A program made the position numbers and the translations under genes. Of a stretch of DNA of 64,000 bases, positions 21,503 to 59,399 are shown piece by piece. A model generated the notes under the pieces. It made no database searches. It worked only from the letters and a program-made list of their open reading frames with translations, and was not told the origin of the DNA. The stretch comes from Prauserella flavalba (lineage in GTDB: Bacteria; Actinomycetota; Actinomycetes; Mycobacteriales; Pseudonocardiaceae). Numbering within the stretch: position 1 is the stretch's first letter; each line of letters opens with the position of its first letter. Location: positions 1 to 64,000 of the forward strand of contig NZ_MASU01000014.1 of assembly GCF_003202235.1 (NCBI RefSeq), written 5' to 3'.

Positions 21503-21555
21503 GCAGTGAAGGCCACCATGCCTGCGTTGAACGCAGTGAAGGTGGCCTTCACTGC
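21503..21555. repeat. 53-bp palindromic repeat, class A (copy A1, degenerate left arm)
   Basis: The right arm and centre match the class A consensus (arms GCAGTGAAGG-CCA-CCTTCACTGC, centre GCGTTGAACGC). The left arm has changed to CCACCATGCCTGC. It begins 14 bp after the zur stop and, with B1, fills the convergent gap between zur and the YcgQ-like gene, so it is likely to end transcription in both directions. Confidence 0.85.
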
Positions 21556-21566
21556 TGACTCGACTG

Positions 21567-21619
21567 GCCCCCAAGGCCACCTTTGTTGCGTTGAACGCAA
21601 CAAAGGTGGCCTTGGGGGC
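21567..21619. repeat. 53-bp palindromic repeat, class B (copy B1)
   Basis: Perfect palindrome 26-1-26. The arm begins GCCCCCAAGGCCACCTTTG and the centre is again GCGTTGAACGC. It shares the AAGGCCACCTT core with class A but has different flanks. It lies directly beside A1 in the convergent zur / YcgQ-like gap. Confidence 0.9.
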
Positions 21620-21639
21620 AGGTAGGCGGGCCCTCTGGA

Positions 21640-22365
21640 TCAGTACTCGTACGGGTCCTTGGGGGCGGGGACCTCCTGGAGGGTTCCCACCGTCAGCGCC
21701 GGGACGTAGCCGCTGTCGGCCGTGTTCACCCCCGGCACCACCTTGCCCGTCACCCGTATCCACGTGTCGGTGGGCAGGGCGGCGGCGTTGCCGCCGTCGA
21801 GACGCACTCGCACCGGGTAGGCGTCCGCGGCGCAGCAGCCGATCACCAGCCGTGCCAGCAGCGTCTCGCCCTCGTCGTGCACCACGAAGCCCGTGAGCGA
21901 CACCGTGCGCCCGTCCACCGACCGCGCCTCGTCCCAGCCCGCCCTGCTGACGAAGTCCGTGACGGTCATCGGCAGCGGGTCGCCCCGCGGCAGCGGCGGG
22001 AAACTCGCACCGGCCCCGGCGGGGGCGAAGCCCTCGGCCGTGCCGCCGCGGGTGCGCGTCACCGAGTCGGAGCCGAGCGCGGGCGGCGCCACCAGGAACA
22101 CCGCGAGCACCGGCACCATCAGCAGCCACGCCGAGCGCGCCGGGTGGTGATGCTCGTGCCCCGGTTCCTCGACGGCCCGGCGGCGCGCCGCGAGCACGTC
22201 CCGCACGATCGCGACGGCTCCGAGCGCGACGGTCACCGCACCGGCGCCGAGCAGCCACGGCTGGTGCGCCGGCTTGACGTAGCGCAGGTAGTCGCCGGTG
22301 ATGGCGATCTTCAGCAGCGCCCCGCCGAGCAACAGCAGCAGGATGTTCTGCGTCTCCCGCCTCAT
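21640..22365 (-). CDS. YcgQ-like membrane protein (TIGR03943 / UPF0703 family)
   Basis: 241 residues. Three hydrophobic segments: residues 6-24, 36-57 and, after a His-rich loop (EEPGHEHHHPARS), 81-99. An extracytoplasmic domain follows with VSLTGFVVHDEGETLLARLVIGCCAADAYPVRV and WIRVTGKVVPG, an OB-like fold carrying a CC pair. The family is the constant partner of DUF318 permeases (YcgR in Bacillus). The histidine cluster and double cysteine suggest metal handling. ATG 22365 overlaps the stop of the permease gene (ATGA). Confidence 0.83.
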   Translation of the reverse strand: MRRETQNILLLLLGGALLKIAITGDYLRYVKPAHQPWLLGAGAVTVALGAVAIVRDVLAARRRAVEEPGHEHHHPARSAWLLMVPVLAVFLVAPPALGSDSVTRTRGGTAEGFAPAGAGASFPPLPRGDPLPMTVTDFVSRAGWDEARSVDGRTVSLTGFVVHDEGETLLARLVIGCCAADAYPVRVRLDGGNAAALPTDTWIRVTGKVVPGVNTADSGYVPALTVGTLQEVPAPKDPYEY

Positions 22366-23369
22366 CGCACACCCCCGAGGAACAGCAGCCCCGCCCCGAC
22401 CCCGCACAGGACCGCCACGACGAACGTCACCGGCGCGAACCGCAGCGCGAACGGCCTGCCGAACGTCCCGGCCTGCAAGGCGAACAGCTTCAGGTCGATC
22501 GCGGGCCCCACCACCAGGAACACGAGCCTCGGCAGCAGCGGCAGCGCCGAAAGCGACGCCGCGACGAACGCGTCCGCCTCGCTGCACAGCGACAGCACCA
22601 CGGCCAGCACCGCCATCACCAGGATGCCCAGCACGATCTGGTCGCCGAGCGTCCCGAACCACTCCCCCGGCACCAGCACGCCGAGCGCGGCCGACACGAG
22701 CGCGCCGAGCACGAGGAACCCGCCCGCCTCCACCAGGTCGGCGCGCGACGTCTCGGCGAAGACCTTCCAGCGGTCCCTGCCCTCGACCTCGGGCAGCCTG
22801 CGCAGCGCCCGCTCGGCGATCCATTCGAGCTTGCCCCAGCGGATCCACAGCCAGCCCATGATCATCGCGGTGAAGAGCGAGCCGACGAACCGCGCGAGCA
22901 CCATCCCCGGTTCGCCGGGGAACGCCACGGCCGTCGAGACGATCACCACCGGGTTCACGGCGGGCGCCGCCAGCAGGAACGTCAGCGCCGCGGCCGGGGC
23001 GACGCCCTGCCCGATGAGCCTGCGCGCCACCGGAACCGACGCGCACTCGCACCCGGCCAGCGCGACCCCGGAGAGTCCCGCCACGCCCACCGCCGCGCTC
23101 TCCCTGCGCGGCAGCACCCTGCGCAGCACGCGAGCCGGGACGAACGCCGCGATCGCACCGCTGATGAGCACGCCGAGCACCAGGAACGGCAGCGCCTGCA
23201 CGCACACCGCAACGAACACCGTCGCGCCGGTACGCAGCGCGGGCACGTCGAGCACCGACCGCAGCCACGACTGGCCGAGGATCGCGACCACCAGCACCAC
23301 GCAGAGCACCTCGACCGAGGTGATCCGCAGGCGCCCCGAGCCGGGCCGCGCCTGCGTGCTGCTACCCAC
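22362..23369 (-). CDS. YcgR-like permease (DUF318 / UPF0718 family)
   Basis: 335 residues with about eight transmembrane helices. Family signatures include LPFLVLGVLISGAIAAFVP, the re-entrant segment GVALAGCECASVPVARRLIGQG, FLLAAPAVNPVVIVSTAVAF, and SLCSEADAFVAAS. The conserved polar pairs E-C and S-E-A-D inside the membrane are typical of this transporter family, related to arsenite/organoarsenical permeases. Substrate is unknown; the neighbouring Zur and SmtB genes and the His/Cys-rich partner point to a divalent metal. GTG 23369 directly abuts the stop of the YbjN-like gene. Confidence 0.83.
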   Translation of the reverse strand: MGSSTQARPGSGRLRITSVEVLCVVLVVAILGQSWLRSVLDVPALRTGATVFVAVCVQALPFLVLGVLISGAIAAFVPARVLRRVLPRRESAAVGVAGLSGVALAGCECASVPVARRLIGQGVAPAAALTFLLAAPAVNPVVIVSTAVAFPGEPGMVLARFVGSLFTAMIMGWLWIRWGKLEWIAERALRRLPEVEGRDRWKVFAETSRADLVEAGGFLVLGALVSAALGVLVPGEWFGTLGDQIVLGILVMAVLAVVLSLCSEADAFVAASLSALPLLPRLVFLVVGPAIDLKLFALQAGTFGRPFALRFAPVTFVVAVLCGVGAGLLFLGGVR

Positions 23370-23786
23370 TCACGCTCCCGCGCCGAGCAGCTCGGAACGC
23401 ACCTGCGAGGCCGTGGACACCACGAGCATCAGCAGCGTCCCGAGCGGTGCGACGTCGAGGCCCTGCGCGGGGAAGGCGTAGCGCAGCGTGAGGTCCATGC
23501 CGCGTTCGGAGTGCACGAGCCCCAGTGTGCCGAAGAGCCCCTGGCCGGCGCGCTCGGCGACCGCGACGGCGAGGCCGGGGTCGTCGGGCAGGTCCCAACC
23601 GACCACACAGGTCATGCTGAGCACGGCGAGTCCGTCGGCCAGCCGCATCGCCTGCACGACGCACGGCACGTCGGAGTGCGAGAACGTGAGCGTGCCGTCG
23701 TCGTCGACCTTGACCTCCAGGTAGCGCTCCAGCGCCCGCTGGGCGGCGGTGAGCAGCTCTGCCGTGTCGGCTGCCTCGGATGTCAT
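23370..23786 (-). CDS. YbjN-domain protein
   Basis: 138 residues, soluble alpha/beta YbjN fold resembling type III secretion chaperones: [39 protein letters not shown] and [20 protein letters not shown]. YbjN-like proteins are common next to uppS in actinobacteria; their role is unknown. ATG 23786, behind AAGGAGG, overlaps the TGA of uppS; the longer open frame upstream is uppS antisense frame and is not used. Confidence 0.82.
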
Positions 23787-24619
23787 GAGCGGGCCTCCTT
23801 GGCCGCGGCGTCGACCGCTCCGCCGAAGCGCCGGTCCCGCTTGGCGTACTCGAGGCACGCCTCCCAGAGCTTGCGGCGGTCGAAGTCGGGAAACAGCGTG
23901 TCCTGGAAGACGAACTCGGCGTAGGCCGACTGCCACAGCATGAAGTTCGACGTCCGCAGCTCTCCCGAGGGCCGCAGGAACAGGTCCACGTCGGGCATCT
24001 CGGGCTGGTACAGGTACTTCGCGAGCGTGCGCTCGTCCACCTTGTCCGGGTTGATCTTGCCCTCGGCGGCGAGCTGGGCGATGCGCCGCGCGGCGTCGCC
24101 GATCTCGGCCCGGCCGCCGTAGTTCACGCACATGGTCATGTTGAGCAGCGTGTTGTGCCTGGTTTTCTCCTCGGCAGCCTGCAGCTCCTTGATCACGCTA
24201 CGCCACAGTTTCGGCGTGCGGCCCGCCCAGCGGATCCGTACGCCGATCGAGCCGAGGTAGTCGACCTGGCGGCGGATCGTGTCGCGGTTGAAGCCCATGA
24301 GGAAGCGCACCTCGTCGGGGCTGCGCTTCCAGTTCTCGGTGGAGAAGGCGTACACCGAGAGCCATTTGACGCCGAGCTCGACGGCGCCGCTGGCCACGTC
24401 GATCATCACGGCCTCGCCGCGTTTGTGCCCCTCGATGCGGGGCAGCCCACGCTGGTTGGCCCACCGGCCGTTGCCGTCCATCACCAGCGCGACGTGGTTC
24501 GGCACCAGCTCGGCCGGGATCCGCGGCGGGCACTCGCCGGAAGGATGCGGGTCAGGCGCCCGCACCGCCCCCTGCGACGCCCTCAGTGACGTCGCCGCCT
24601 CGCGTCCCCTGCGCCGCAC
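23783..24619 (-). CDS. uppS: Isoprenyl diphosphate synthase (decaprenyl/undecaprenyl, cis type)
   Basis: 278 residues. Adds cis isoprene units to make the polyprenyl diphosphate carrier for peptidoglycan and arabinogalactan. Catalytic D in [16 protein letters not shown], then [32 protein letters not shown], and the C-terminal [28 protein letters not shown] all match the UppS family. The N-terminal 35 residues are a variable extension; GTG 24619 lies inside the 3' end of recO (68-bp overlap), so the genes are coupled. A downstream start cannot be ruled out. Confidence 0.93.
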
Positions 24620-25415
24620 CTGTCACCTCCGTGTCGCCGGACATCGCGTCCGACCCTAACGCGCCGGTGATCGGGGCCTCGCGGGCACGGCGTTCGACGA
24701 ACGGCAGGGAGCGCAGCTGCCGCTCCAGATGCCACTGCAGGTGCGCCGCGACCAGTCCGCTCGCGTCGCGGCGCACGCTGGAGGTGGTCTCCTCGGCCAC
24801 GGGCCAGTCGCCGTGCAGCAGCGCCGCGAGCAGCACCAGCACCTCGGGCGCGGGGTGCACCGAGCCGGGCACGCGGCAGCGGCCGCACAGGGAGCCGCCT
24901 GCCTGGACGTTGAACGCGCGGTGCGGGCCGGGCTCGCCGCAGCGCGCGCACTCGGTGATGGCCGGCTCCCAGCCCGCGAACGCCATCGCGCGCAGGAAGA
25001 ACGCGTCGAGCACCAGCGACGCGTCGCGCCGCCCTTCGGCCAGCGCCCGCAGCGCGCCCGTCACCAGCAGATACAGCTTCAGGGCGGGCTCGCCCTCCTC
25101 CGCGCTGAGCCGGTCGGCGGTCTCGGTGATGGCGACGGCCGCGGTGTAGCGCGGGTAGTCGCCGACGATCGGCAGCGCGAACGCGTCGACGGTCTCGACC
25201 TGCGTGATCACGTCGAGCGTGCGGCCCGTGTAGAACTGCGTGTCGACGTTGTTGAACGGCTCCAGCCGGGCACCGAAGCGCGACGTGATGCGCCGCACGC
25301 CCTTCGCCACGGCGCGGACCTTGCCGTGCCGCCGGGTGAGCATGGTGACGATGCGGTCGGCCTCGCCGAGCTTGTGCAACCGCAGCACCACGCCGGTGTC
25401 CCGATACAGACTCAC
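24552..25415 (-). CDS. recO: DNA repair protein RecO
   Basis: 287 residues. Loads RecA with RecR during gap repair. An N-terminal OB fold ([41 protein letters not shown]) precedes a helical domain and a zinc finger CARCGEPGP ... LCGRCR (four Cys). The C-terminal 45 residues are an Ala/Gly/Thr-rich tail overlapping the uppS start. Starts at GTG 25415. The class A repeat A2 lies just upstream, between recO and era. Confidence 0.92.
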
Positions 25416-25435
25416 GTTGTCATGGTCCCACGTCT

Positions 25436-25488
25436 GCAGTGAAGGCCACCTTCACTGCGTTGAACGCAGTGAAGGTGGCCTTCACTGC
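25436..25488. repeat. 53-bp palindromic repeat, class A (copy A2)
   Basis: Perfect 26-1-26 palindrome; each 23-bp arm is itself a 10-3-10 palindrome. It is the only complete copy in the window located between two genes on the same strand (era, then recO), 24 bp after the era stop and 20 bp before the recO start. If it terminates transcription, recO-uppS must have their own promoter in a very small space. Confidence 0.92.
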
Positions 25489-25512
25489 GGTTGGGTGCCG
25501 CGGGCCGCGGGC

Positions 25513-26412
25513 TCAGAAGCCGAGGCGGCCCAGCTGTTTCGGGTCCCGCTGCCAGTCCTTGGCCACCTTGACGTGCAGGTCGAGGTACACCTTCGTGCCG
25601 AGCAGCGCCTCGATGTGCTTGCGCGCGTCCGCGCCGACCTGCTTGAGCCTGCTGCCGCGGTGGCCCAGCACGATGCCCTTCTGGCTCGGCCGCTCCACGA
25701 ACACGTGCGCGTAGACGTCGATGAGGTCGTCGCGGCCCTCGCGGGGCTGCATCTCCTCCACGACCACCGCGATCGAGTGCGGCAGCTCGTCGCGCACGCC
25801 CTCCAGCGCTGCCTCCCTGATCAGCTCGGCGACCAGGGTCTGCTCGGGCTCGTCGGTGAGGTCGCCGCCCGGGTAGAGCTGCGGCCCTTCCGGCAGCCGC
25901 CGCACGAGCACGTCGGCGAGCGTGCCGACCTGGTAACCGTCGACAGCGGACACGGGCACCAGGTCGGCGAACTCCATGACCTCCTGCAGCGCCACGAGCT
26001 GCTGCGCGACCTGGTCGGGCGTGGCGAGATCGGTCTTGGTGACGATGCCCACGACCGGGGTATGCCTGGCGATCTTGGCGAGCTCACTGGCGATGAACTT
26101 GTCGCCGGGGCCCACCTTCTCGTTGGCGGGCACGCAGAAGCCCACGACGTCCACTTCGGACCACGTCGAGCGCACGACGTCGTTGAGCCGCTGGCCGAGC
26201 AGCGTGCGCGGGCGGTGCAGGCCGGGGGTGTCGATGATGATCAGCTGCGCGTCGTCGCGGTGCACGATGCCGCGGATTGCGTGCCGCGTGGTCTGTGGCT
26301 TGCTCGACGTGATGGCGATCTTGGTGCCGACGAGGGCGTTGGTGAGCGTCGACTTCCCCGCGTTGGGGCGCCCGACGAAGCAGGCGAACCCGGACCGGTG
26401 CTCGTCGGTCAC
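25513..26412 (-). CDS. era: GTPase Era
   Basis: 299 residues. Ribosome-assembly GTPase that binds the 3' end of 16S rRNA. G1 GRPNAGKST, G2 with TTRHAI, G3 DTPG, G4 TKTD and a C-terminal KH domain with the GxxG-like turn HRGSRLKQVG. GTG 26412 overlaps the stop of the preceding gene by GTGA, linking it to the cytidine-deaminase-like gene and the CBS protein. Confidence 0.95.
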   Translation of the reverse strand: MTDEHRSGFACFVGRPNAGKSTLTNALVGTKIAITSSKPQTTRHAIRGIVHRDDAQLIIIDTPGLHRPRTLLGQRLNDVVRSTWSEVDVVGFCVPANEKVGPGDKFIASELAKIARHTPVVGIVTKTDLATPDQVAQQLVALQEVMEFADLVPVSAVDGYQVGTLADVLVRRLPEGPQLYPGGDLTDEPEQTLVAELIREAALEGVRDELPHSIAVVVEEMQPREGRDDLIDVYAHVFVERPSQKGIVLGHRGSRLKQVGADARKHIEALLGTKVYLDLHVKVAKDWQRDPKQLGRLGF

Positions 26413-26744
26413 CGAAGGATCTCCTGTACGGCGCCGGACGGGTCGGCCCGCAGGATCGGCGCGCTCGGGGTGAGGTCGTGCACGGCCTGCACGGACGCGC
26501 CCTTGATCATGACCTCGCTCGTGACCACGGCGGCGGCCTCGAGTCCCTCGGCTCCGCTGGACACGGCGGCGGCGACGGCGGCCTGCAACGCGGTCAGCTT
26601 GAACGAGGGCAGGTCGACCGTGGCGGCGGCGTAGGTGCGCCCGTCGGTGTCGCGCACGGCGGCCCCTTCCTCCGCCTGGATACGGGCTCGGGTGGAGCGC
26701 GCGAGGATGATGATCTTCTCGTCCTCCGGGTCAAGGTCAGGCAT
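26409..26744 (-). CDS. Cytidine-deaminase-fold protein without catalytic residues
   Basis: 111 residues. The order of secondary-structure elements and the segments GRTYAAATVDLPSF and TALQAAVAAAVSSGAEGLEAAAVV follow the cytidine deaminase fold. The zinc ligands and catalytic Glu (HAE/CAE and PCxxC) are missing: TALQAAV stands where T-x-C-A-E-R is expected. It is therefore unlikely to deaminate. The gene is a fixed neighbour of era in actinobacteria (as Rv2365c in M. tuberculosis), suggesting a retained structural or regulatory role. It overlaps the stop of the CBS gene by 8 bp. Confidence 0.75.
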   Translation of the reverse strand: MPDLDPEDEKIIILARSTRARIQAEEGAAVRDTDGRTYAAATVDLPSFKLTALQAAVAAAVSSGAEGLEAAAVVTSEVMIKGASVQAVHDLTPSAPILRADPSGAVQEILR

Positions 26745-28065
26745 GTTCGACGCTCCTATCGCGCTCGTCCGTTCCGTTCTGCCGGGGCGGCGCCCACTCC
26801 TCGTCGGTGGGGCGTACCACCACCGTCGTGATGCGCATCCTGCCGCGCCGGTCCTTGCCGCCCTCGGCCCGCAGCCGCAGGCCCTCGATCTCGGCCTCCG
26901 CGCCGGGCAGCGGGACGCGGCCGAGCCGCTGCGCGAGCAGCCCGCCGACGGTCTCCACGTCGTGGCCGGAGAGGTCGACGTGGAACAGCTCGCCGAGGTC
27001 GTCGATGCCGAGACGCGCCGACACGCGCACCACGCGCTCGCCGAGGTGCTCGACGGGCGGGCGCTCGCCGGTGTCGGACTCGTCGGTGATCTCGCCGACG
27101 ATCTCCTCCAGGATGTCCTCGATGGTGAGCAGGCCCGCCGTGCCGCCGTACTCGTCGACGGCGATCGCCATGTGGTGGCGCGACACCTGCATCTCCTTGA
27201 GCAGGCTGTCGAGCCGCTTGGAGTCGGGCACGAAGCTGGCAGGGTTCATCAGCTCGCCCACCTGACGCGCGCTGCCGCCGTCCGCCATCGACGCCCGCAC
27301 CAGGTCCTTGAGGTTCACCACGCCCACGATGTCGTCAACGGACTCGCCGATCACCGGCAGCCGCGTGAACCCGGTGCGCATCGACAGGGCGAGCGCCTGG
27401 CGCAAGGTCTTGCCCTGCTCGATCCAGACGATCTCCGTGCGCGGCACCATCACCTCGCGCGCGACGGTGTCCCCCAGTTCGAACACCGAGTGGATCATTT
27501 CGCGCTCGTCGGTGCCCACGACGCCGCGCTCGCCCGCGAGGTCGACCAGCTCGCGCAGCTCGGTCTCGGTGGTGAACGGGCCCTCGCGGAACCCCTTTCC
27601 TGGCGTGATCGCGTTGCCGAGCACGATGAGGAGCTTGCTGAGCGGGCCGAGGATGGTGCCGAGTACGCGCACGGGTCCGGCGACGAGCGTGCCGACGCGG
27701 TAGGGGTGCTGCCTGCCGATGGTGCGCGGGCCGACGCCGACGAGGACGTAGCTGACGAGCACCATGATCAGCCCGGCGGCGAGCACGGCGAGCGGGACCG
27801 GCTGGAACCACCGCACGCTGACGATGGTGACGAGCACGGTCGCGGTCAGCTCGCAGCCCATGCGCAGCAGCAACAGGAGGTTGATGTGCCTGCTGCGCTC
27901 GCCGATCACGGCGAGCAGCTGGCGGGCGCCGACGCGGCCGAGCCGGACGAGCCCCTCGACGCGGGCCTGCGAAACGGTGCTCACGGCGGCGTCGGCGGCG
28001 GCGAACACACCGCCGAGCAGCACCAGCAGCGTGGCGATGACCAGCAGTACGGCGGAGCTGGTCAC
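26737..28065 (-). CDS. HlyC/CorC-family membrane protein with DUF21 and CBS pair
   Basis: 442 residues. A DUF21 (CNNM) transmembrane domain with about four helices (residues 3-130) is followed by a tandem CBS pair ([20 protein letters not shown] ... [50 protein letters not shown]) and a CorC_HlyC C-terminal domain ([19 protein letters not shown]). Related proteins export or sense Mg2+/Co2+. The start GTG 28065 overlaps the ybeY stop (GTGA). Confidence 0.88.
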
Positions 28066-28613
28066 GGTGCCTCCGGGTCGTTCCCCCCGTCGAGCCCGGC
28101 CGCCCCGAGCAGACGGTCGTCGTTGCTGCGCTGGACGTCCTGCCGCTGCGCGGCGAGTGCCGCGGCGCGGAAGTCGGCCAGGATCCGCCGCTGCAGCGCG
28201 AACATCTCGCGCTCCTCGGCGGGCTCGGCGTGGTCGTAGCCGAGCAGGTGGAGCACGCCGTGGACGGTCAGCAGGTGCAGCTCCTCGATGAGCGAGTGCC
28301 CGGCCGTGCGCGCCTGGTCCCTGGCGAACGCGGGGCACAGCACGATGTCACCCAGCAGCGCGGGTGAGGCCTCGGGCGCGTCCGGCCGCCGGGTGGACTC
28401 CAGCTCGTCCATGGGGAACGCCATGACGTCGGTGGGGCCCGGCAGGTCCATCCAGCGCTCGTGGAGGTCCTCCATCACGTCGAGGGTCACCAGCAGCACG
28501 GACAGCTCCGCGAGCGGGCTGACCTCCATGCGGTCCAGCGCGAACCGGGCGGCCGAGACGATCGACGCCTCGTCGACCCCGACACCGGACTCGTTGGCGA
28601 TTTCGATGCTCAC
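28062..28613 (-). CDS. ybeY: Endoribonuclease YbeY (16S rRNA maturation)
   Basis: 183 residues. The zinc metallo-motif H-x3-H-x5-H is present as [11 protein letters not shown]. The preceding [10 protein letters not shown] and GDIVLCPAF are family signatures. It processes the 3' end of 16S rRNA and takes part in ribosome quality control. The C-terminal 35 residues are a low-complexity extension. Coupled to the CBS protein downstream; the phoH gene is 97 bp upstream, the usual order. Confidence 0.93.
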
Positions 28614-28710
28614 GGGTGTTTTCGCCTCCTTCGTCCCTCATCCGGCGAGAACGCCCGCGAGGCACGAACGCATTGTGTCCAATAGAGCGATTCCTCGCGC
28701 TCGTGATCGC

Positions 28711-29793: not shown

Positions 29794-29852
29794 TCGTCAT
29801 TGCTGCTTGCCCTGTCGATGTTAACGGCATCGACGCGTCCGGGGCGGCTAGA

Positions 29853-38636: not shown

Positions 38637-38689
38637 GCAGTGAAGGCCACCTTCACTGCGTTCAACGCAGTGAAGGTGGCCTTCACTGC
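38637..38689. repeat. 53-bp palindromic repeat, class A (copy A3)
   Basis: Perfect palindrome (inverted orientation of the centre, GCGTTCAACGC). It lies in the convergent gap between the SSI gene (+) and the kinase-TPR gene (-), and its last bases supply the CAG TGA end of the kinase-TPR reading frame. Position fits a bidirectional terminator. Confidence 0.93.
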
Positions 38690-46828: not shown

Positions 46829-46906
46829 CGCTGCCGGCAGGTCCGTTCCCAGCCGCAGTGAAGGCCACCTTCACTGCGTTCAACGCAGTGAAGGTGGCCT
46901 TCACTG

Positions 46907-47824
46907 AGCCTTTTCCATCTTGATCTTTGTGTGGTTTGGCGTGTTGGTGTGCCGAACGTAGTGAAGCTCCTGGTAGATGGATCGTCGACCAAGATCAACC
47001 CAGGACCACCAGGAGCTTCGCGTGTTGTTGTATCCCGGCACGATCGACCTGTCCACCACCCACCTGCGGTATGTCGCCACCGTGGTCCGCGTCCACCGCC
47101 GCCGGATCGGCAGCCGCTGGCGTCGGCTCTCGGCCGGCCAGCAGGCCCTGCTGGTGCTGGCCCACCTGCGCAACGGCGACCCCTACGCGCGGCTGGCCGC
47201 CGGATTCGGCATCGGGATCGCCACCGTGTACCGCTACATCCGCGAAACGGTCCACCTGCTCGCCGCCCGCGCACCCACCCTCACCGACGCACTCCGGCGC
47301 CTGTCCCGCCACGGCGACAACTACGCCATCCTCGACGGCAGCGTCATCCGCACCGACCGGCTCGCCGCCGACCGACCGTTCTACTCCGGCAAACACCGCC
47401 ACCACGGCATCAACCTGCAAGCACTCACCGACCCGCGCGGCACCCTGCTCTGGGTCTCCGACGGCCTACCCGCAGCGGTCAACGACACCGCCGCAGCCCG
47501 CCACCACAACATCCCCGACGCCTGCCGCCAAGCCGGCATCACCGTGCTGGCCGACAGCGGCTACCACCACATCGCCGACGGGGTGATCACCCCCTACAAA
47601 CGCGTGGGCGGCGGCCACATCACCACCCGGGAACTCAACCCCGGCCAACGCGTAGCCAACACCGCCCTCGCCCGCGTCCGCGCCCCCGGCGAACGCGCCT
47701 TCGCCACCCTCAAAGCCTGGCGCATCCTCACCCGCGTCCGCTGCAGCCCCCACCACGTCACCACACTCGCCAAAGCCATCCACACCCTCGAACACCACCC
47801 CCACCACCAAGGATGAAAAAGGCT
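46907..47824 (+). mobile_element. IS5-like (DDE_4 type) insertion sequence, 918 bp
   Basis: Ends AGCCTTTTCCATC and GATGAAAAAGGCT form a short inverted repeat. A 5-bp duplication CACTG flanks it at 46902-46906 and 47825-47829. One transposase gene fills the element. The insertion point is the last base pair of palindrome A4, so the ancestral sequence can be written exactly. Confidence 0.9.
47022..47816 (+). CDS. IS5-like transposase (DDE_Tnp_4 / HARBI1-like)
   Basis: 264 residues from GTG 47022, preceded by AGGAG. An N-terminal helix-turn-helix (SAGQQALLVLAHLRNGDPY, LAAGFGIGIATVYRYIRETV) leads to the catalytic domain with D in YAILDGSVIRTDRL, the KHRHHGINLQALTDPRG strand, D in VLADSGYHH and E in APGERAFATLKAWRIL. 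All three acidic residues are present, so it is probably functional. A longer start at 46977 is possible but lacks a ribosome site. Confidence 0.87.
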   Translation: MLLYPGTIDLSTTHLRYVATVVRVHRRRIGSRWRRLSAGQQALLVLAHLRNGDPYARLAAGFGIGIATVYRYIRETVHLLAARAPTLTDALRRLSRHGDNYAILDGSVIRTDRLAADRPFYSGKHRHHGINLQALTDPRGTLLWVSDGLPAAVNDTAAARHHNIPDACRQAGITVLADSGYHHIADGVITPYKRVGGGHITTRELNPGQRVANTALARVRAPGERAFATLKAWRILTRVRCSPHHVTTLAKAIHTLEHHPHHQG

Positions 47825-47830
47825 CACTGC

Positions 47831-48185
47831 AGGTCGCTCGGGCGGATGCGAAGCGTGCGTGGGCGCGGCGGCGACCACCACCTCGTTGCCGCTGTCGGTG
47901 AGGACGGCTGCGCAAACGGATGGGCGACCGCGCGCCCGTCTGGACCGAAATCGGCGTCGCGGCCCTGGGCGCGCCGAGGATGCGCGTCGAGATCCGGGCC
48001 ACCGCGATCGTCGGCTCGGCCTAGGAGCGCACTGAACCACCGCTGCCCTACTGCGCGACGCCCAGACGGCGCCTCGCTGCGTTGTCGGAAAGCCCGAGTA
48101 CGACCCGGTACGAGGGCTTCCCTCCGCCTTGCGAAGCCGCCGCCTGGATCGCCGCTCGCTACGGGCGGGGTCGTTCAGCACGCTC
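47831..48185. other. 355-bp region between IS element and beta-lactamase-fold gene
   Basis: No intact gene. The first part holds a short in-frame remnant resembling the end of a RidA-family protein (47902-48024). The second part, about 48065-48170, holds GC-rich imperfect inverted segments around GCCCGAGTAC ... GTACGAGGGC that look like another decayed intergenic repeat. Confidence 0.5.
47902..48024 (+). pseudogene. Possible C-terminal fragment of a RidA-family protein
   Basis: The frame reads GDRAPVWTEIGVAALGAPRMR, then VEIRATAIVGSA and TAG. RidA proteins end with a similar pattern (R-P-x-x-T-x-x-G-V-A-A-L ... V-E-I-x-A-x-A). An in-frame stop lies just upstream and there is no start, so only the last 30 residues or so survive. 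The resemblance is short; it could be chance. Confidence 0.3.
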
Positions 48186-49418
48186 CTAGACCAGCGCCTG
48201 GTAGACGAGCTGGCGTAGTTGCTGGCGCAGCGGATGGGTGCTGGAGGGCAGCAGCTGGGTGAAAAAGAGCACGGTCAGCTCCTCGGCGGGGTCCACCCAG
48301 AACGCCGTGCTGGCCGCGCCGCCCCACGCGTACTCGCCGACGCTGGAGAGGGTCTTGGCCTTCACCGGGTCTTGCAGCACCGAGAACCCGAGCCCGAAGC
48401 CGAAGCCGTCGAACGGCATCTCGGCGAACAGCGGGCGCCCGAACGCCTCCAGGTCCGCCCCACCGGGCAGGTGGTTGCTCGTCATGGCCCGCACCGTGCG
48501 CGGGCTCAGCAGCCGCACGCCGTCCAGCTCGCCGCCGCGCAGCAGGAACTGCGTGAAACGGTGGTAGTCGGCGGCCGTCGAGGCGAGCCCCGCGCCGCCC
48601 TGCAGGCACACGGGCCTGCGCTTGATGCCGTCGCCGAACGCGTCGTTGCGGACCGCGCGGCGGGTGCCGGGTGCGGGGACGTACAGCGCGGCGAGCTGCT
48701 CCTGCGCCTCGCCTTCGACGGAGAACGCCGTGTCGGACATCCCGAGCGGGCCGAAGATCCGCTCGGCGAAGAACTCGTCGAGTGACCGGCCCGACACCAC
48801 CTCGACGAGCCTGCCGAGCACGTCGGTGGCGACCGAGTAGTTCCACTCCGAGCCCGGCTGGAACACCAGCGGCAGGCTCGCCCACGCCTCACAGCACGCG
48901 GCGAGGTCCTTGCCGGGCGGCGTGCTCCACTCGAACCCGGCGGTGCGGTAGAGCGCGTCCACGGGGTGCGCGTGATGGAAGCCGTAGGTGAGCCCCGCGG
49001 TGTGGGTGAGCAGGTGCCACACCCGGATGGGCTCGGTCGCGGGCTCCGTGACCGGCCGCAGCGACGAGCCCTTGGCGTAGACCCGCGGCTCGGTGAACTC
49101 GGGCAGCCAGCGGTGGATGGGGTCGGTGAGGTCGAAGGCGCCCTCCTCGAACAGCATCATCGCCGCGACCGACGTGATCGGCTTGGTCATCGAGAAGATC
49201 CGCCAGCGGGTGCCGGCCTCGACCGGAAGCCCGGCCTCCACGTCTCGCTGCCCGTAGGCGGACACGTGGGCGATCTTGCCGCGCCGGGCGACCACGGTGA
49301 GCCACCCGGGCAGCAGGCCCTCGTCGACGTAGCGGGACATCCGGCGGTCGACGCGGAGGAGGCGGTCCGCGTCGAACCCGAGCTCTGCGGGGTCGGCCTC
49401 GACCTTGAGATCCGTCAT
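48186..49418 (-). CDS. Serine hydrolase of the beta-lactamase / class C esterase family
   Basis: 410 residues. Catalytic S76-M-T-K79 (IFSMTKPITSV), then YSV in EWNYSVATDVLGRL (the Y-x-N-equivalent), and a C-terminal HxG-like region around EYAWGGAASTAFW. This is the EstB/LovD-type esterase group rather than a true beta-lactamase. No signal peptide, so cytoplasmic. ATG 49418 (MTDLKVEADPAELGFD). The gene is 10 bp after the siderophore-interacting protein and probably cotranscribed with it; the substrate might be a siderophore ester, by inference. Confidence 0.87.
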   Translation of the reverse strand: MTDLKVEADPAELGFDADRLLRVDRRMSRYVDEGLLPGWLTVVARRGKIAHVSAYGQRDVEAGLPVEAGTRWRIFSMTKPITSVAAMMLFEEGAFDLTDPIHRWLPEFTEPRVYAKGSSLRPVTEPATEPIRVWHLLTHTAGLTYGFHHAHPVDALYRTAGFEWSTPPGKDLAACCEAWASLPLVFQPGSEWNYSVATDVLGRLVEVVSGRSLDEFFAERIFGPLGMSDTAFSVEGEAQEQLAALYVPAPGTRRAVRNDAFGDGIKRRPVCLQGGAGLASTAADYHRFTQFLLRGGELDGVRLLSPRTVRAMTSNHLPGGADLEAFGRPLFAEMPFDGFGFGLGFSVLQDPVKAKTLSSVGEYAWGGAASTAFWVDPAEELTVLFFTQLLPSSTHPLRQQLRQLVYQALV

Positions 49419-50253: not shown

Positions 50254-50289
50254 GCGTGACTCCTCTGCGGCGCGGAAAGCGTCAGTAGA

Positions 50290-51432: not shown

Positions 51433-51488
51433 GATGAGTCCTTTCCTGAAACGTGCGGATGTCAGCGAACAAGGGAGATCGGTGGGGG

Positions 51489-53006: not shown

Positions 53007-53052
53007 GGTCGCTCCAGTTCGGACGGGCGGACCGCGTCGGGCGGCCGCTTCT

Positions 53053-53068
53053 GCTGACTGGAGTCAGC
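53053..53068. promoter_or_regulatory. Inverted repeat upstream of the permease gene
   Basis: GCTGAC-TGGA-GTCAGC, a 6-4-6 perfect inverted repeat 47 bp before the permease start. Its place in the only gap of the lysR-permease-transaminase row makes it a candidate operator or leader hairpin. Confidence 0.35.
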
Positions 53069-53136
53069 ACACCGGAGACTCAGGCGCGAGGGAAGTTCCT
53101 AATTCTCATGGGATCAATAGCCTGGGTTTATCGGCC

Positions 53137-54066
53137 TCAGTGCTCTTCGAGCCCGTCGCTGCCCCAGTTCTGCTGAACGTGCCGCACGAACAAGTCACCT
53201 TCCCGGGTCAGCAGGCCCGGATCCCAGACCAGAGCGGTATCGCTCGAGGGCCGTCCCGTGATGGGCACGTAGACCACACCCGGTCTTTCGTACAGTCGCG
53301 CACAGGCCTCGGTCGTGAAGCTGATGCCCAGGCCCCGGGCGACGTACGTGGTCTCCGCCTCGTATGTCGCGGCCGTGGCGGCGATCGTGGGCGCGCGCCC
53401 GCCCCTGGCATCCATCGCGAGCCAGTGTTCGCGCCAGCTGCCCGCCGTGTCCGGTGCGGCGACGATCGGTTCGTCGAGCAACTCGCCGATCTCGACCTCG
53501 TTCCGGCCCGCGAGGCGATGGTCGCGGGGCAGGCACGCCACCCAGTGCTCCGAATCGACGACGTGTACGCGATGACGGGGAAGGTCCACCGGCGGACGGA
53601 TGAGGGCCAGCTCGACCGTCCCGTCCGCCAAACCCGCCGTCGGATCCGAGAAGTCGAACTCCGTCGCCTCGACGGTGATCTCGGGATGCGCGATCTCGAA
53701 GTGTCGAACCATCCGGAACAGGAGGTCCGCTCCGGTACCGATCAGATAGCCGAGCCTGATGCGACCGGCTCCGGGATGCGCGAGCGCGACGAGCTGGTCG
53801 ACGGCGGCGTCGACATGCTGCAGCGCTTCACGGGCGGTCGGCAGCCACGCCGCGCCGACTTCCGTGAGCGATACCTCCCTGGTGTTCCTGGCGAACAACA
53901 CGACGTCGAGCTGGCGCTCCAGCTGTTTGATCGCAGTCGAGAGGGCGGGCTGCGTGATGAAGAGCCTGTCGGCAGCCCGGCGATAGTTCAGCTCCTCCCC
54001 GAGGACGACGGCGTATCGCAGCTGCCTCAGCGTGACCGCGGCGTTGTTGACGACTTCCTCCCGCAC
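53137..54066 (-). CDS. LysR-family transcriptional regulator
   Basis: 309 residues. N-terminal winged helix: VTLRQLRYAVVLGEELNYRRAADRLFITQPALSTAIKQLERQLDVVLFAR (in parts), with the LFITQPALSTAIK recognition helix. A two-lobe effector domain follows (GRIRLGYLIGTGADLLF, LALIRPPVDLP). Probably controls the permease and transaminase genes lying downstream in the same orientation, although LysR genes are more often divergent from their targets. GTG 54066 start. Confidence 0.9.
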   Translation of the reverse strand: MREEVVNNAAVTLRQLRYAVVLGEELNYRRAADRLFITQPALSTAIKQLERQLDVVLFARNTREVSLTEVGAAWLPTAREALQHVDAAVDQLVALAHPGAGRIRLGYLIGTGADLLFRMVRHFEIAHPEITVEATEFDFSDPTAGLADGTVELALIRPPVDLPRHRVHVVDSEHWVACLPRDHRLAGRNEVEIGELLDEPIVAAPDTAGSWREHWLAMDARGGRAPTIAATAATYEAETTYVARGLGISFTTEACARLYERPGVVYVPITGRPSSDTALVWDPGLLTREGDLFVRHVQQNWGSDGLEEH

Positions 54067-54184
54067 GGCTCGAAATCCGATCCGCCCGATATTACCTGTT
54101 CAGGGCCTTCTGGCGACGCTCGAGCTGCTGATCCTAACGCCCGATGCGCACTCGGCGACGAGTCTCGCCGTCGAACACGTCGAC

Positions 54185-56065
54185 TCACTCGCCCGCACCA
54201 ACAAGGGCTACGGGCCGCGACCGCGTGGCCGCCAGCGTCGTCCACACGTTGGTGCCGCCGACGACCAGCAGCGCACCGGCGACGGTGAGCCCGAGCAGCT
54301 CCCACGGCACCACGACCGTCGCCGAGCCGGAGATGCGGGCCGTGGCCGCCGCGATGCCCACAAGGGTTCCCGCGGCGGCGACCCCGCCGAGCAGCAGCCC
54401 GACCGCGGTGACGGCCCAGGACTCCACGAGCGCCATGCGCACGACCTGTCCCCTGCTGAGCCCGCTGACCCTCGCCACCGCGAACTCCCGGCGGCGCTCG
54501 GCGGCCGCGATCACCACGGCGTTGATCACCGCGATCAGCGCGTACAGGCCGGAGAGGCCGAGCACGACCGCCATGATCCCGGAGCTGGTGTCCTGCTGCC
54601 TGCTCGCCGAGGCCGTGATCCACTCGTCGAGCGTGCTGACCTCACCGAGCCCGCGCGCCCCGATCGCCGTGGCGAGGTCGCGGGGGTCGGCGCCGGGCTC
54701 GGCCCGCACGATCGTCTCCGACGTGGCCGCCGAGGCGACCGGACCCGGCACCACGCCCGGCGGCAACAGAATCTCCTCGCCGCCGCCCATGGTCTGCGGC
54801 AGTACGGCGACCACGCGCAACGGCACCGTGCGCCCGCCGATACCCGCCTCCAGCTCGGCGCCGAGCGGGTAGAGGCCGGAGCCGACCGCCACGGTGTTGC
54901 CGTGCAGGTCGGCCAGCGAACCCGCCTCGGGCGCGCGGCGGTAGGTCTGCGCGTAGGCCGCCGGATCGACCACGGTGGCGTCGACGTCCTCGACCTCGGT
55001 CTCCACCTCCCCGTCGTCAACGGTGCGCGTGGTGACCGTCATCGGCACCCGCAGCCGCTCGGCGGCCACCGCGACACCGGGCACCGAAGCCAGCTCGGCC
55101 GCACCCGGCCCGGTCGAGGTGACCACGAGGTCGCCGGCGAGGTCACGGCGCAGTTCGTGCTCGGTGGCCTTGTCGATCGACGCGAGCACCCCGGTCTGGC
55201 CGACGAGCAGCGCGACGAGCACGAGCAGCGGCGCCGCCGTGGAGGCGCTGCGCCGCACGCCGTCACGGAGGTTGGCCTGGGCGAGCGTGCCGAGGGTGCT
55301 GCCGCGCAGCAGGAGCCCGAAGAGTCTGCCGACGAACGGGACCACCAGCGGGCTCAGTGCGCTGAGCGCGACCGAGGCGGTGAGCGCGGCGTTGATGGTG
55401 AGCGGGATGGCACCCTCGGGCCCGACGAACGACGCGACGGTGATGAGCGCGACCGTGCCCGCGAGGAACAGCAGCCCGAAGAACCACCGGGCGGCGGTCA
55501 TCACGCGGGCGCCCTCACCGGTGTCCCGCAGCGCGTCGAGCGGGCGGACCTTGCCCGCCCTGCGGGAGGCGGCCAGCACCCCGGCCAGAGAGACGCCGAC
55601 CCCCACGCCTGCCGAGGCGCCGAGGATCCAGTCCTGCCAGTGCGCTGCGAAGTCCGGTGGCACGAAGCCGAGGGAGGTCAGCAGCGACGTCTGCGCGTCC
55701 ATCGCCACGAGGCCGAGCGGCACGCCCGCCGCCGTGCCGAGCAGGCCGAGCAGCAGCGCCTCCGACAGCAGGAGCCTGCGCACCTGTCCCCTGCCCGCCC
55801 CGACGAGCCGCAGCAGCGCGAGGTCACGCCTGCGCTGGGCGACGGTGAAGGCGAACGTGGAGCTGACGATGAAGACGGCGAGGAACGTCGAGACGCCCAG
55901 GGTGACCGCGAGCAGCGTGATCGCCTCGATGAGCCCGGACGTCGCCGCGGTGACGAGGATCAGCAGCGAGGACTGCACGAGCGCCACGCCGAGGCACACG
56001 GTGACGATCGCGCCGATGAACAGCTGCCAGCGTTCGCGGAAGGTGCTCCAGGACAACCGCAGCAC
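54185..56065 (-). CDS. ABC transporter permease, FtsX/MacB-like
   Basis: 626 residues. Two FtsX-type modules: an N-terminal helix (MLRLSWSTFRERWQLFIGAIVTVCLG), a cluster of three helices around residues 60-150 with FLAVFIVSSTFAFTVAQRRRDLALLRLVGAGRGQV, a central extracellular domain of about 200 residues, then three more helices ending with YALIAVINAVVIAAAERRREFAVARVSGLSRGQV. Such permeases export lipids, peptides or toxins or drive envelope remodelling rather than import. Four bp downstream of its ATPase gene. Confidence 0.88.
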   Translation of the reverse strand: MLRLSWSTFRERWQLFIGAIVTVCLGVALVQSSLLILVTAATSGLIEAITLLAVTLGVSTFLAVFIVSSTFAFTVAQRRRDLALLRLVGAGRGQVRRLLLSEALLLGLLGTAAGVPLGLVAMDAQTSLLTSLGFVPPDFAAHWQDWILGASAGVGVGVSLAGVLAASRRAGKVRPLDALRDTGEGARVMTAARWFFGLLFLAGTVALITVASFVGPEGAIPLTINAALTASVALSALSPLVVPFVGRLFGLLLRGSTLGTLAQANLRDGVRRSASTAAPLLVLVALLVGQTGVLASIDKATEHELRRDLAGDLVVTSTGPGAAELASVPGVAVAAERLRVPMTVTTRTVDDGEVETEVEDVDATVVDPAAYAQTYRRAPEAGSLADLHGNTVAVGSGLYPLGAELEAGIGGRTVPLRVVAVLPQTMGGGEEILLPPGVVPGPVASAATSETIVRAEPGADPRDLATAIGARGLGEVSTLDEWITASASRQQDTSSGIMAVVLGLSGLYALIAVINAVVIAAAERRREFAVARVSGLSRGQVVRMALVESWAVTAVGLLLGGVAAAGTLVGIAAATARISGSATVVVPWELLGLTVAGALLVVGGTNVWTTLAATRSRPVALVGAGE

Positions 56066-56068
56066 GGT

Positions 56069-56848
<780 letters not shown>

Positions 56849-56931
56849 CTCAGCGCCGGCAAGCGCCCCGGTCAGCGGTGTCCGCCCCCGAGATCGGGGT
56901 GGGGCCCGCCCTACCTCAGGGGTGACGCCTC

Positions 56932-56967
56932 TTGACAGGTTGCCAACAAGCGGTCAACGTGTCCGCA
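56932..56967 (+). promoter_or_regulatory. Candidate promoter for the GMC oxidoreductase gene, possibly leaderless
   Basis: TTGACA (56932-56937) is followed after 17 bases by CAACGT (56955-56960), six bases before the ATG at 56967. This gives a sigma-70-like promoter whose start site would be at or next to the A of the start codon. The -10 match is weak and there is no clear ribosome site before the ATG, consistent with leaderless translation. Confidence 0.4.
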
Positions 56968-58676
56968 TGACGCAGTTCGACTACGACGTCCTGGTCATCG
57001 GCTCCGGCTTCGGCGGCTCCGTCAGCGCACTGCGCCTGACGGAGAAGGGCTACCGGGTCGGTGTGCTCGAGATGGGCAGGCGGTTCACCGACGAGGAGCT
57101 GCCGAAGACGTCGTGGCGGCTGCGGGACTACGTCTTCGCGCCCGCACTCGGGTGCACGGGCATCCTGCGCATGACGCCGCTCAAGGACGCGCTCGTGCTC
57201 ACCGGCGCCGGTGTGGGCGGCGGTTCGCTCGTCTACGCCAACACGCTCTACGAGCCGCCGGACGCCTTCTACGCCGACCGCCAGTGGGCGCACATCACGG
57301 ACTGGAAGGCCGAGCTCGCGCCGTACTACGACCAGGCCAAGCGCATGCTCGGCGTGACCCGCTACCCGCTTATCTCGCCCGCGGACGAGGTGATGCGCGA
57401 GGTCGCCGAGGACATGGGCATCGGCCACACCTACGGCCCGACACCCGTCGGCGTGTACTTCGGCGAGGAGGGCACGAAGCCCGGCGTGCGCGTGCCCGAC
57501 CCGTTCTTCGGCGGCGTGGGGCCGCAGCGGCGGACGTGCACCCACTGCGGCGAGTGCATGACCGGGTGCCGCCACGGTGCGAAGAACACGATGGTGAAGA
57601 ACTACCTCTACCTCGCCGAGCAGGCCGGCGCGCGTGTGCACCCGATGACCACCGTCACCGAGGTCCGTCCCCTGCCCGGCGGCGGGTACTCCGTCGCCAC
57701 CGTCCACACCGGACGCCCGTGGCGGCGCACGACCTTCACCGCCGAGCAGGTGATCTTCTCCGCCGCGGCACTCGGCACCCAGCGGCTGCTGCACAAGATG
57801 CGCGACCGCGGCGTGCTGCCCCGGCTCTCACCGAGGGTCGGCGTGCTCGCGCGCACCAACTCCGAGGCCATCCTCGCCGCCCGCACCACGCGCAAGGACA
57901 CCGAGTACCACCGCGGCGTCGCGATCACCTCCTCCATCCACCCCGACGAGGTGACCCACGTCGAGCCGGTGCGCTACGGCAAGGGCAGCAACCTGCTCGG
58001 CCTGCTCGGCGCCGTGCTCACCGACCCGGTGCCCGGCAAGCGGCGCTGGGTGCTCGGGCTCAAGCAGATGTGGAAGCACCGGAGGTCGCTGCCCGCGTTG
58101 CACAACCCGAGGCGCTGGTCGGAGCAGACCATCGCGCTGCTGGTTATGCAGACGCTCGACAACTCCGTGACGACGTACACCACACTGGGGCTCTTCGGCA
58201 GGCGCCTGAAGACGAAACAGGGCATCGGCGAGCCGAACCCGACGTGGATCCCGGCGGGACACGAGGTCACGCGCCGGGTCGCGGACAAGATCGGCGGCCT
58301 GCCCGGCGGCGGCTGGAACGACCTGGCGAACATCCCGCTCACCGGGCACTTCATCGGAGGGTGCGCGATCGGCGACTCCCCCGACACCGGCGTGGTGGAC
58401 CCGTACCAGCGGCTGTACGGCTACGAGGGCCTGCACGTGGTGGACGGCTCGACGATCACGGCGAACCTCGGCGTGAACCCGTCGCTGACCATCACCGCGC
58501 AGGCCGAGCGGGCCATCGCGATGTGGCCGAACAAGGGCGAGGAGGATCCGCGCCCCGCACTCGGAGAAAGCTACCGGCGAGTCGCTCCGGTGACTCCGAA
58601 ACACCCGGTCGTGCCTGATTCGGCGCCGGGCGCACTACGGTTGCCACTCTTTCCGGCGAAATCGGAACCGGCGTGA
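56967..58676 (+). CDS. GMC-family FAD-dependent oxidoreductase (ChoD-like)
   Basis: 569 residues. An N-terminal dinucleotide-binding motif VLVIGSGFGGSVSALRLTEKGYRVGVLEMG and a later GGGSLVYANTLYEPPD flavin loop. CTHCGECMTGCRHGAKNTMVKNY is a cysteine-rich ferredoxin-like cluster seen in this subgroup. The C-terminal GGCAIGDSPDTGVVDPYQRLYGYEGLHVVDGSTITANLGVNPSLTITAQAERA (in parts) is the GMC signature. The family includes cholesterol oxidase-like ChoD of mycobacteria; steroid substrate is inference. ATG 56967 chosen because upstream in-frame residues overlap the divergent ABC gene's leader. Confidence 0.88.
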   Translation: MTQFDYDVLVIGSGFGGSVSALRLTEKGYRVGVLEMGRRFTDEELPKTSWRLRDYVFAPALGCTGILRMTPLKDALVLTGAGVGGGSLVYANTLYEPPDAFYADRQWAHITDWKAELAPYYDQAKRMLGVTRYPLISPADEVMREVAEDMGIGHTYGPTPVGVYFGEEGTKPGVRVPDPFFGGVGPQRRTCTHCGECMTGCRHGAKNTMVKNYLYLAEQAGARVHPMTTVTEVRPLPGGGYSVATVHTGRPWRRTTFTAEQVIFSAAALGTQRLLHKMRDRGVLPRLSPRVGVLARTNSEAILAARTTRKDTEYHRGVAITSSIHPDEVTHVEPVRYGKGSNLLGLLGAVLTDPVPGKRRWVLGLKQMWKHRRSLPALHNPRRWSEQTIALLVMQTLDNSVTTYTTLGLFGRRLKTKQGIGEPNPTWIPAGHEVTRRVADKIGGLPGGGWNDLANIPLTGHFIGGCAIGDSPDTGVVDPYQRLYGYEGLHVVDGSTITANLGVNPSLTITAQAERAIAMWPNKGEEDPRPALGESYRRVAPVTPKHPVVPDSAPGALRLPLFPAKSEPA

Positions 58677-58689
58677 GAAACTGCACGAC

Positions 58690-59316
58690 ATGACCGCGGA
58701 ATCGGCACCCAAATGGCGACGGCTCGAACCGGACGAGCGCCGGGAACAGATCTTCACGTGCGCGGCGCAGTTGTTCGGTGAACGGCCTTATGCCGAGGTG
58801 TCCACATCGGACATCGCGGCCAGGGCGGGCGTCGCGCGTGGTCTGATAAACCACTATTTCGGGACGAAGCGCGAACTTTATCTGGCAGTTGTCAAAAGGG
58901 CACTCACCGTGCCCTATGTCGCGGTGGCACAGTTACCGTCCGGTTCGGTGGAGGAACGGACCAATGCCGCGGTCGAATGGTTCCTCGACATGGTGAGCAA
59001 ACAGGAGAAGATGTGGCTCGCCGCGATCACGCCCGAAGGCATCGGACGCGACGTCGAGGTGGAGCGCATCGTGGACGAGGCCGACCGCCGCTCCGCCGAC
59101 CGCGTGCTGCAGGCGATGGGCTTCGCTGAGGACGACCCGCGCTGGGAGCAGCTCAACGCGCTCGTGCGCACCTACGGCGGCATGGTCAAGGCGGCCGGTC
59201 GCGAATGGCTCGTACGCGGCACGCTGAGCCGCGAACAGGTGCGCACGCTCCTGAGCACCCAGCTACTGACCCTGGTGAAGGACGTGCTCCCCCAAATCAC
59301 CCCTGCCCCCCGCTAG
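58690..59316 (+). CDS. TetR-family transcriptional regulator
   Basis: 208 residues. N-terminal helix-turn-helix: RREQIFTCAAQLFGERPYAEVSTSDIAARAGVARGLINHYFGTKRELYLAVV (in parts). The C-terminal ligand domain has no recognisable subfamily. It follows the GMC oxidoreductase by 13 bp on the same strand and probably regulates that gene, the convergent exporter, or both. Confidence 0.9.
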   Translation: MTAESAPKWRRLEPDERREQIFTCAAQLFGERPYAEVSTSDIAARAGVARGLINHYFGTKRELYLAVVKRALTVPYVAVAQLPSGSVEERTNAAVEWFLDMVSKQEKMWLAAITPEGIGRDVEVERIVDEADRRSADRVLQAMGFAEDDPRWEQLNALVRTYGGMVKAAGREWLVRGTLSREQVRTLLSTQLLTLVKDVLPQITPAPR

Positions 59317-59342
59317 CCGCCGCCAAACCGCACCCCGAGAAG

Positions 59343-59399
59343 CGGCCCCCAAGGCCACCTTTGTTGCGTTGAACGCAACAAAGGTGGCCTTGGGGGCCG
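59343..59399. repeat. 57-bp palindromic repeat, class B (copy B2)
   Basis: Perfect palindrome with the same centre GCGTTGAACGC and core AAGGCCACCTTTG as B1, extended by two pairs at the ends. It lies between the convergent TetR gene (ends 59316) and exporter gene (ends 59422). Confidence 0.92.

Follow-up and report, generated by a model that had tools for sequence, protein, structure and literature searches.

The 64-kb window analyzed here (positions 1–64,000 of contig NZ_MASU01000014.1, our C14, within the 8.09-Mb Prauserella flavalba assembly GCF_003202235.1) contains six copies of a palindromic element, A1–A4 and B1–B2, at the positions given in a preliminary description of the sequence. 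The element measures 53 bp in total and comprises an outer arm (GCAGTG in class A, GCCCCC in class B), a core (AAGGCCACC), two variable bases, and an inner arm made up of four variable bases and GC, followed by the centre GTTSAAC and the mirror image. Two inverted 23-bp halves, resembling repetitive extragenic palindromic (REP) sequences, are in this way joined by a 7-bp centre. With up to one mismatch allowed, the core AAGGCCACCTT occurs 13 times in the window, 12 of them in the six elements and one elsewhere, far above expectation (shuffled mean 0.39; 0 of 100 shuffles reach 13). The proposed two-class family with a common core was borne out, and genome G022, from another genus, has both classes as well. 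On balance, we favor the reading that these palindromes are a REPIN-like (REP doublet forming hairpin) population that spreads without a REP-associated tyrosine transposase (RAYT) and acts as U-poor bidirectional terminators; comparison between genomes points to dispersal, and we infer termination.

Palindromes of the window and their forms across the genome

The six elements, none with an assigned strand, differ in how perfect they are. A1 (21503–21555) lies at convergent gene ends and has perfect outer arms and core with mismatched inner arms (ATGCCTGC vs. TTCACTGC), an exception to the near-perfect conservation of both arms described earlier. B1 (21567–21619), a perfect 53-bp palindrome with the outer arm GCCCCC, shares the convergent interval of A1. 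A2 (25436–25488) is perfect and lies between two minus-strand genes, 24 bp past the stop codon of the first and 20 bp ahead of the start of the second. A3 (38637–38689) is perfect and convergent, and the TGA stop (38683–38685, minus strand) of a converging kinase/TPR gene falls inside its right arm. B2 (59345–59397) is also perfect and located at convergent gene ends. A4 would span 46855–46907 without an insertion; it now occupies 46855–46905, with its last two bases, GC, at 47829–47830, and its right outer arm is split by an insertion sequence (IS). A2 was said to be the only copy between same-strand genes. Its tandem setting stands, and A4 is placed likewise, although the downstream same-strand "gene" of A4 is the transposase of the inserted 920-bp IS; A4 was scored as tandem in the placement statistics. 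Past this IS, a single weak 105-bp call (47920–48024) precedes the next strong gene call, a minus-strand one at 48186–49418. Carriage on a plasmid or phage was probed with a single 85-base stretch around A2, which gave no match.

The 920-bp IS in A4 (46906–47825, plus strand; ends GAGCCTTTTC.. and ..AAAAAGGCTC) is IS5-like and flanked by an ACT target duplication (46903–46905 and 47826–47828). Its transposase ORF (46977–47816) belongs to the Pfam family DDE_Tnp_4 and matches the NCBIfam IS5 model below cut-off. Four full copies exist in the genome (A4; L222, L223, and L224). Each interrupts a class A arm at CTTCACT^GC and is flanked by duplicated ACT, and the IS end pointing to the body of the palindrome is the same in all four. 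The sole P. endophytica copy (L220) lies outside a palindrome, also with ACT on both sides.

The population extends far beyond the window. The genome-wide count proposed in the preliminary description found 153 sites for a strict 41-base pattern and none for the reversed pattern. The first 1.2 Mb of contig C5 and the window (together 1.26 Mb) hold 44 features, namely 32 short copies, 8 long copies, and 4 solo halves, excluding a third-class palindrome (C5:737882/737908) and two lone extra halves (C5:472145 and C5:605881). Extra core near-matches (≤1 mismatch) in the 1.2 Mb number 45, counting those in long forms and solo halves. The long form occurs in both classes and carries the same two halves, ~108 bp overall, around a conserved ~62-bp internal segment (GCCCACCCGTCTCCC...). 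With at most 40 first-look candidates scored, this segment gave (counting matches, which do not equal elements) 42 matches here, 44 in P. endophytica, 27 in G022, 9 in G012, and 1 in P. cavernicola. Among seven G012 segments inspected by eye, three stand beside a recognizable half and four do not; the segment has no visible halves at loci L242, L255, L259, and L267, and may be a separate element in its own right. It also repeats at ~52 bp in G022 (C14:129432–129590) and at ~86 bp in P. endophytica (C34:312447–312667), and a candidate G-quadruplex was spotted in it by eye.

Two other palindromes were seen on C5. The third-class palindrome (L055:17883–17935; C5:737882; CCCCCAGTGCGCTGTGGTC...GTTCAAC) has the same centre and a different core, and P. 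cavernicola has nothing there. A long palindrome near position 10584 of L043 (C5:490584), with TTGACAAA/TTTGTCAA near its centre, is also present at the collinear position in P. cavernicola (C11 ~327522) and looks like an operator outside the element family.

Hairpin stem and placement at gene ends

Alignment of 30 copies revealed a 25-bp stem in which 94.9% of 750 cells are paired, a value that falls to 32–48% when the partner is slid by 1–3 columns. Double-changed cells number 75 (shuffled mean, 29.7), and the covariation score is 0.237 against 0.089. RNA folding of A2 yields −50.9 kcal/mol for the long hairpin, compared with −15.2 plus −15.2 for two half-hairpins; for B1, the values are −52.6 and −2.8 plus −4.7 kcal/mol. 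Perfect copies have predicted energies of about −51 to −53 kcal/mol and A1 −39.7 kcal/mol, while the two half-hairpins together reach −30.4 kcal/mol in the best class A copy and −7.5 kcal/mol in class B. The 25-bp long hairpin is the common shape. The preliminary description held that each class A half is itself a 10-3-10 palindrome, allowing a cloverleaf-like fold. This is true of both halves of A2 and A3 and of the right half of A1; the left half of A1 has three mismatches and its inner arms have three, and the right half of A4 has one, because the IS cuts it. Among the 21 class A short copies in C5:1–1200000 and the window, both halves are perfect in 4, one in 10, and none in 7 (one of the 21, the 54-bp copy C5:188048, is out of register in this scoring and in the flank analysis below), and no perfect half-palindrome exists in 11 class B short copies. 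Mismatches between the inner arms affect 11 of the 21 class A and 3 of the 11 class B copies. The cloverleaf is no general property of the family, and we dropped it as such because the long hairpin is much more stable than two half-hairpins. In the window, L239, and L241, the tRNA alone reached the Rfam gathering score, and no known RNA family was assigned to the palindromes.

Gene context was determined with our own dicodon ORF caller trained on C5 (the ORF C5:508376–508711 was dropped as dubious). The preliminary description had noted a bias toward convergent gene ends, and the 44 features are far from randomly spread across spacer types: 28 are convergent, 15 tandem, and 1 divergent. Once the elements are taken out, 17.0% of intergenic bases belong to convergent spacers (p = 7e-12), and 14.4 divergent features would be expected (p = 5.7e-7). 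All except one of the features (43/44) are extragenic, the remaining one lying only inside a weak ORF call, and 43 of the 44 overlap a stop codon or lie ≤35 bp from one. The tandem spacers that hold elements reach ~420 bp, and in 14 of these 15 cases the upstream stop is nearer than the downstream start, the exception being A2 (24 vs. 20 bp). Elsewhere, 23 loci of ten genomes were read, taking one to three best matches each and leaving aside L128–L130 (weak carriers); one locus has no gene call on one side, and the 22 classifiable loci comprise 11 convergent, 9 tandem, and 2 divergent cases. Element-free spacers were compared as well: their stem score exceeds the shuffled value most clearly in convergent spacers (8.54 vs. 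5.28; tandem, 5.79 vs. 4.91; divergent, 5.89 vs. 5.09), suggesting that a hairpin seems favored there. As in intrinsic terminators, a stable GC-rich hairpin sits just 3′ of the stop codon.

The same distribution could arise if the palindromes were selfish miniature elements with no role in termination, inserting anywhere and surviving in convergent and 3′ spacers because insertions elsewhere do harm. The single divergent feature among 44 fits purging from promoters, and the coexistence of long, short, and solo forms with IS insertions resembles the decay of mobile elements. The position relative to stop codons, both across the 43 features and in the 14 tandem spacers, is nonetheless tighter than promoter avoidance predicts, and the stem mostly stays paired while its sequence changes. 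We regard a purely selfish element as unlikely, though a serious competitor to a terminator that also spreads.

Flanks, mobilizers, and turnover between species

We examined the flanks of 66 elements, 11 of them from P. endophytica and some orthologous. The plurality flanks read CCCRACY...RGTYGGG. Beyond orthologous sites, the sole full case of flanks common to different copies is due to the IS. Direct repeats of 3 bp flank 3 of the 66 elements (0.35 expected). Pairing between flanks at 14 offsets is mostly near the base-composition expectation, exceeding it at offsets 1, 3, and 11 (26/20.1, 27/19.8, and 32/18.9 of 66) and falling below it at offset 8 (10/20.3 of 66). The excess at offset 11 and the 3-bp repeats may be chance or the trace of an insertion mechanism.

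The movement of REPINs is ascribed to a cognate RAYT, a Y1 HUH transposase, and the preliminary description suggested looking for one. The RAYT/Y1 profile PF01797 gave no match in this genome or in three relatives from the genus, while 5 of 14 control genomes match, though a diverged enzyme could escape the profile. In a 41-genome set, matches occur in 0 of 14 carriers and 5 of 27 non-carriers. Among 150 genomes of the family (element and PF01797 counts came from two draws whose identifiers agree and are taken as one sample), 12 of the 76 carriers have the profile, as do 20 of the 74 non-carriers (odds ratio 0.51, p = 0.11); it occurs in 6 of the 41 genomes with ≥10 element matches and in 3 of the 23 with ≥30. 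Because 12 carriers do have PF01797, we limit the claim to the absence of an association, despite the exclusivity seen in the 41 genomes. RAYT presence does not explain carriage, and RAYT was rejected as the mobilizer on the basis of these searches. An autonomous parent with the same ends would place halves at gene-sized spacing, and none was recognized in the 1.26 Mb read.

A classical REPIN system, mobilized in trans by a RAYT, would match the doublet anatomy, spacer, copy number, and hairpin/clover alternative, as these are outlined in PMC3116915. The enzyme profile is absent here and unassociated with carriage, and the flanks lack, by eye, the foot tag defined as GTAG or CGTC in the account of PMC3733652. 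Since both the RAYT and the tag tests fail, we keep the elements apart from REPINs and judge a classical RAYT-driven origin improbable.

The proposed spread of the palindromes was examined at orthologous sites. The comparison covers sites with an element in P. flavalba and both flanks alignable. In P. endophytica CGMCC 4.7182 (G002), 13 sites on C5 were compared, with flanks 83–96% identical, and 11 hold an element. One has the same arms and form (753952), one differs by a single arm base (698753), and the other nine differ further. The inner arms differ at 508603 and 814627. The class differs at 824515 (B here, A there) and at 737882, where P. flavalba has the third-class palindrome and P. 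endophytica a B-like copy. At 577047 (same arms; here L047:17048–17100) and 468006 (different arms), one species has the short form and the other the long form, in both directions, which suggests that the ~62-bp internal segment comes and goes as a whole. A solo half stands against a doublet at 551522 and 709973, while at 551123 a long form is matched by clustered halves. P. endophytica has no element at 724530 and 800509, and its element at C23:183222 is absent from P. flavalba. Of two sites with one-sided synteny, C5:480662 looks alike in both species, and C5:605899 differs in its inner arm (CCCT in P. flavalba, CACT in P. endophytica). In P. cavernicola ASG 168 (G001), 14 of 15 sites lack a family element; 824515 holds that species' own variant (GCGGTGAAGGGCACC...), and 441845 has an unrelated 44-bp palindrome instead. 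The turnover of sites, classes, and forms bears the marks of recent spread, as the preliminary description had proposed, and turnover of site and form between species is evidence of dispersal, a trait of REPINs. That the arms often change together while the flanks change little suggests that they are overwritten from other copies and not altered by point mutation.

The elements also vary across the family. The best copies in other genera are 53 bp long, mostly with a GTTSAAC-like centre, and have different arms, such as GCCATGAAGGCCACC (G012), GCCGTGAAGGTGGCT (G021), GCAGTGAGGGGCACC (G009), and, in another family of the order, GGTCGCATGGCCACC (G039). A model built from this genome's own copies, which favors similar arms, matches 76 of 150 sampled family genomes and 27 of 46 genera. 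Counting matches on both strands and scoring the best 137, 150, or 37 per genome, 41 genomes have ≥10 matches, 23 have ≥30 of 37 scored, and 33 of the 76 have ≤5.

One site, the end of an M3 peptidase gene (C5:824515), was followed through relatives with actinobacterial names. In the 34 read out of 80, the stem score is ≥13 in 19 and 5–11 in 15. The occupants are palindromes of widely differing sequence: a class A element in P. endophytica, a GGGCACC variant in P. cavernicola, and, in Amycolatopsis rhizosphaerae, a GCCGTGAAGGGTCCC palindrome of 53 bp; many Amycolatopsis have ordinary GC-rich hairpins. This observation, from a single site, would fit a terminator role filled by whatever hairpin is available. 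Tandem direct repeats occur at the same gene end in Prauserella muralis and Pseudonocardia bannensis (L135 and L167; CGAGTTCTGCACTCAGGCCCG and GACGCGCGAGTCGGGGGATTCG).

Ordinary stationary terminators, alike through selection for one optimal hairpin, would share the 3′-end placement and the stable stem. They are disfavored by the turnover of sites, and they do not account for identity far beyond the needs of a stem, for other arms in most other genomes read, or for the 14 P. cavernicola sites without such an element, which makes such an explanation very hard to credit. We give the slimmest chance to sites recognized by a protein for DNA binding or DNA uptake, with variants reflecting co-evolution, like Neisseria uptake sequences doubling as terminators: the between-species variants and terminator-like placement recall those sequences (PMC1852404; see also PMC3630211), but the 45 extra core near-matches in 1.2 Mb are few beside the copy numbers given as generally at least 1,000 for uptake signals (PMC1852404), and the conserved unit is the entire 53-bp doublet.

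Proposed mechanism and comparison with known systems

The proposal of RAYT-less spreading terminators can be set out as follows. The palindromes would be copies of a dispersed REPIN-like element in a short (53 bp) or long (~108 bp) form. The RNA of either strand is predicted to fold into a stable ~25-bp stem just past the stop codon, which may act in both directions as an intrinsic terminator poor in U, or may protect the 3′ end, and copies landing at stop codons would be retained through that action. Position, structure, and replacement by other hairpins indicate that the hairpins after gene ends are probably two-way transcription stop signals. Copies would spread and overwrite one another from other copies by transposition in trans or by ectopic gene conversion, without a Y1 (RAYT) enzyme. 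More tentatively, we propose RAYT-independent, miniature, self-spreading terminators whose arms are rewritten from lineage to lineage while staying mostly palindromic, moved or converted by some other enzyme or by hairpin-templated recombination.

Several observations weigh against this interpretation. Two measures of covariation are no better than shuffles (both-side-changed pairs, 8 vs. 7.6; further pair types, 11 vs. 14.8), and covariation is inflated by the relatedness of the copies. Given this kinship, and since much of the signal is the difference between classes A and B, the data establish that the arms change together, not that they did so in many independent events. Regarding termination, no U-tract follows the stem in the flanks of the 66 elements (plurality RGTYGGG), convergent gaps may be just the least harmful landing place, and 15 of the 34 peptidase gene ends have weak stems. 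In Streptomyces, the A-tracts of bidirectional terminators are described as virtually absent and Rho-dependent ends as maybe common (PMC12207403). Regarding dispersal, no clean empty site was found, the boundaries being ambiguous; a missing element may reflect loss in one species instead of gain in the other; and mutation followed by compensation might explain the changes in place of copying-over. Direct repeats of ≥4 bp, as expected from the target duplications of miniature inverted-repeat transposable elements, flank none of the 66 elements, and no mobilizing enzyme was found. Finally, variants are not strictly one per species: P. endophytica shares arms with P. flavalba, and G022, of another genus, shares class A arms.

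Searches of open-access literature turned up no description of these elements among the titles and abstract openings listed. A population this large and apparently active, in which no RAYT was detected, offers a test case for RAYT-free spread and palindrome upkeep, and for the conversion of repeats into terminators in a high-GC genome. If termination is confirmed, the elements could serve as bidirectional terminators in actinomycete engineering, and transcript boundaries in these genera would be partly set by mobile DNA.

Among known systems, REPINs and bacterial interspersed mosaic elements (BIMEs) with RAYT share two inverted REP-like halves with a spacer, an extragenic location, at least 100 copies, long or paired small hairpins, and, in places, clusters of halves. 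Our elements are likewise high-copy, extragenic inverted pairs of REP-like halves that form one hairpin, but only a minority of the halves are themselves perfect small palindromes. They differ in having no Y1/RAYT found, flanks without GTAG/CGTC, and two fixed spacings (7 or ~62 bp). Their strong bias toward convergent 3′ ends also contrasts with the REP doublets of SBW25, reported as randomly distributed in extragenic space (PMC3116915). The insertion sequences ISPpu9 and IS1397, presented as REP-targeting in PMC8450116, are similar in that a mobile IS is inserted in a repeated palindrome; here, the IS is IS5-like, has a DDE transposase, and is flanked by a 3-bp target duplication, in contrast to ISPpu9, classed there as a DEDD IS110-type element. 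The inverted pairs of uptake sequences acting as terminators in Neisseria and Pasteurellaceae, as outlined in PMC1852404, also lie at gene ends and vary between species; they are built on a 9–11-nt word rather than a 53-bp doublet and exceed our elements in copy number. A parallel in probable function comes from high-GC actinobacterial intrinsic terminators mapped by Term-seq in Streptomyces, where U-poor terminators are reported to have weak U-tracts and the longest and most stable hairpins, GC-rich and close to stops (PMC12207403). Unlike those terminators, the Prauserella hairpins, known from sequence, are one repeated element dispersed genome-wide with variants between species.

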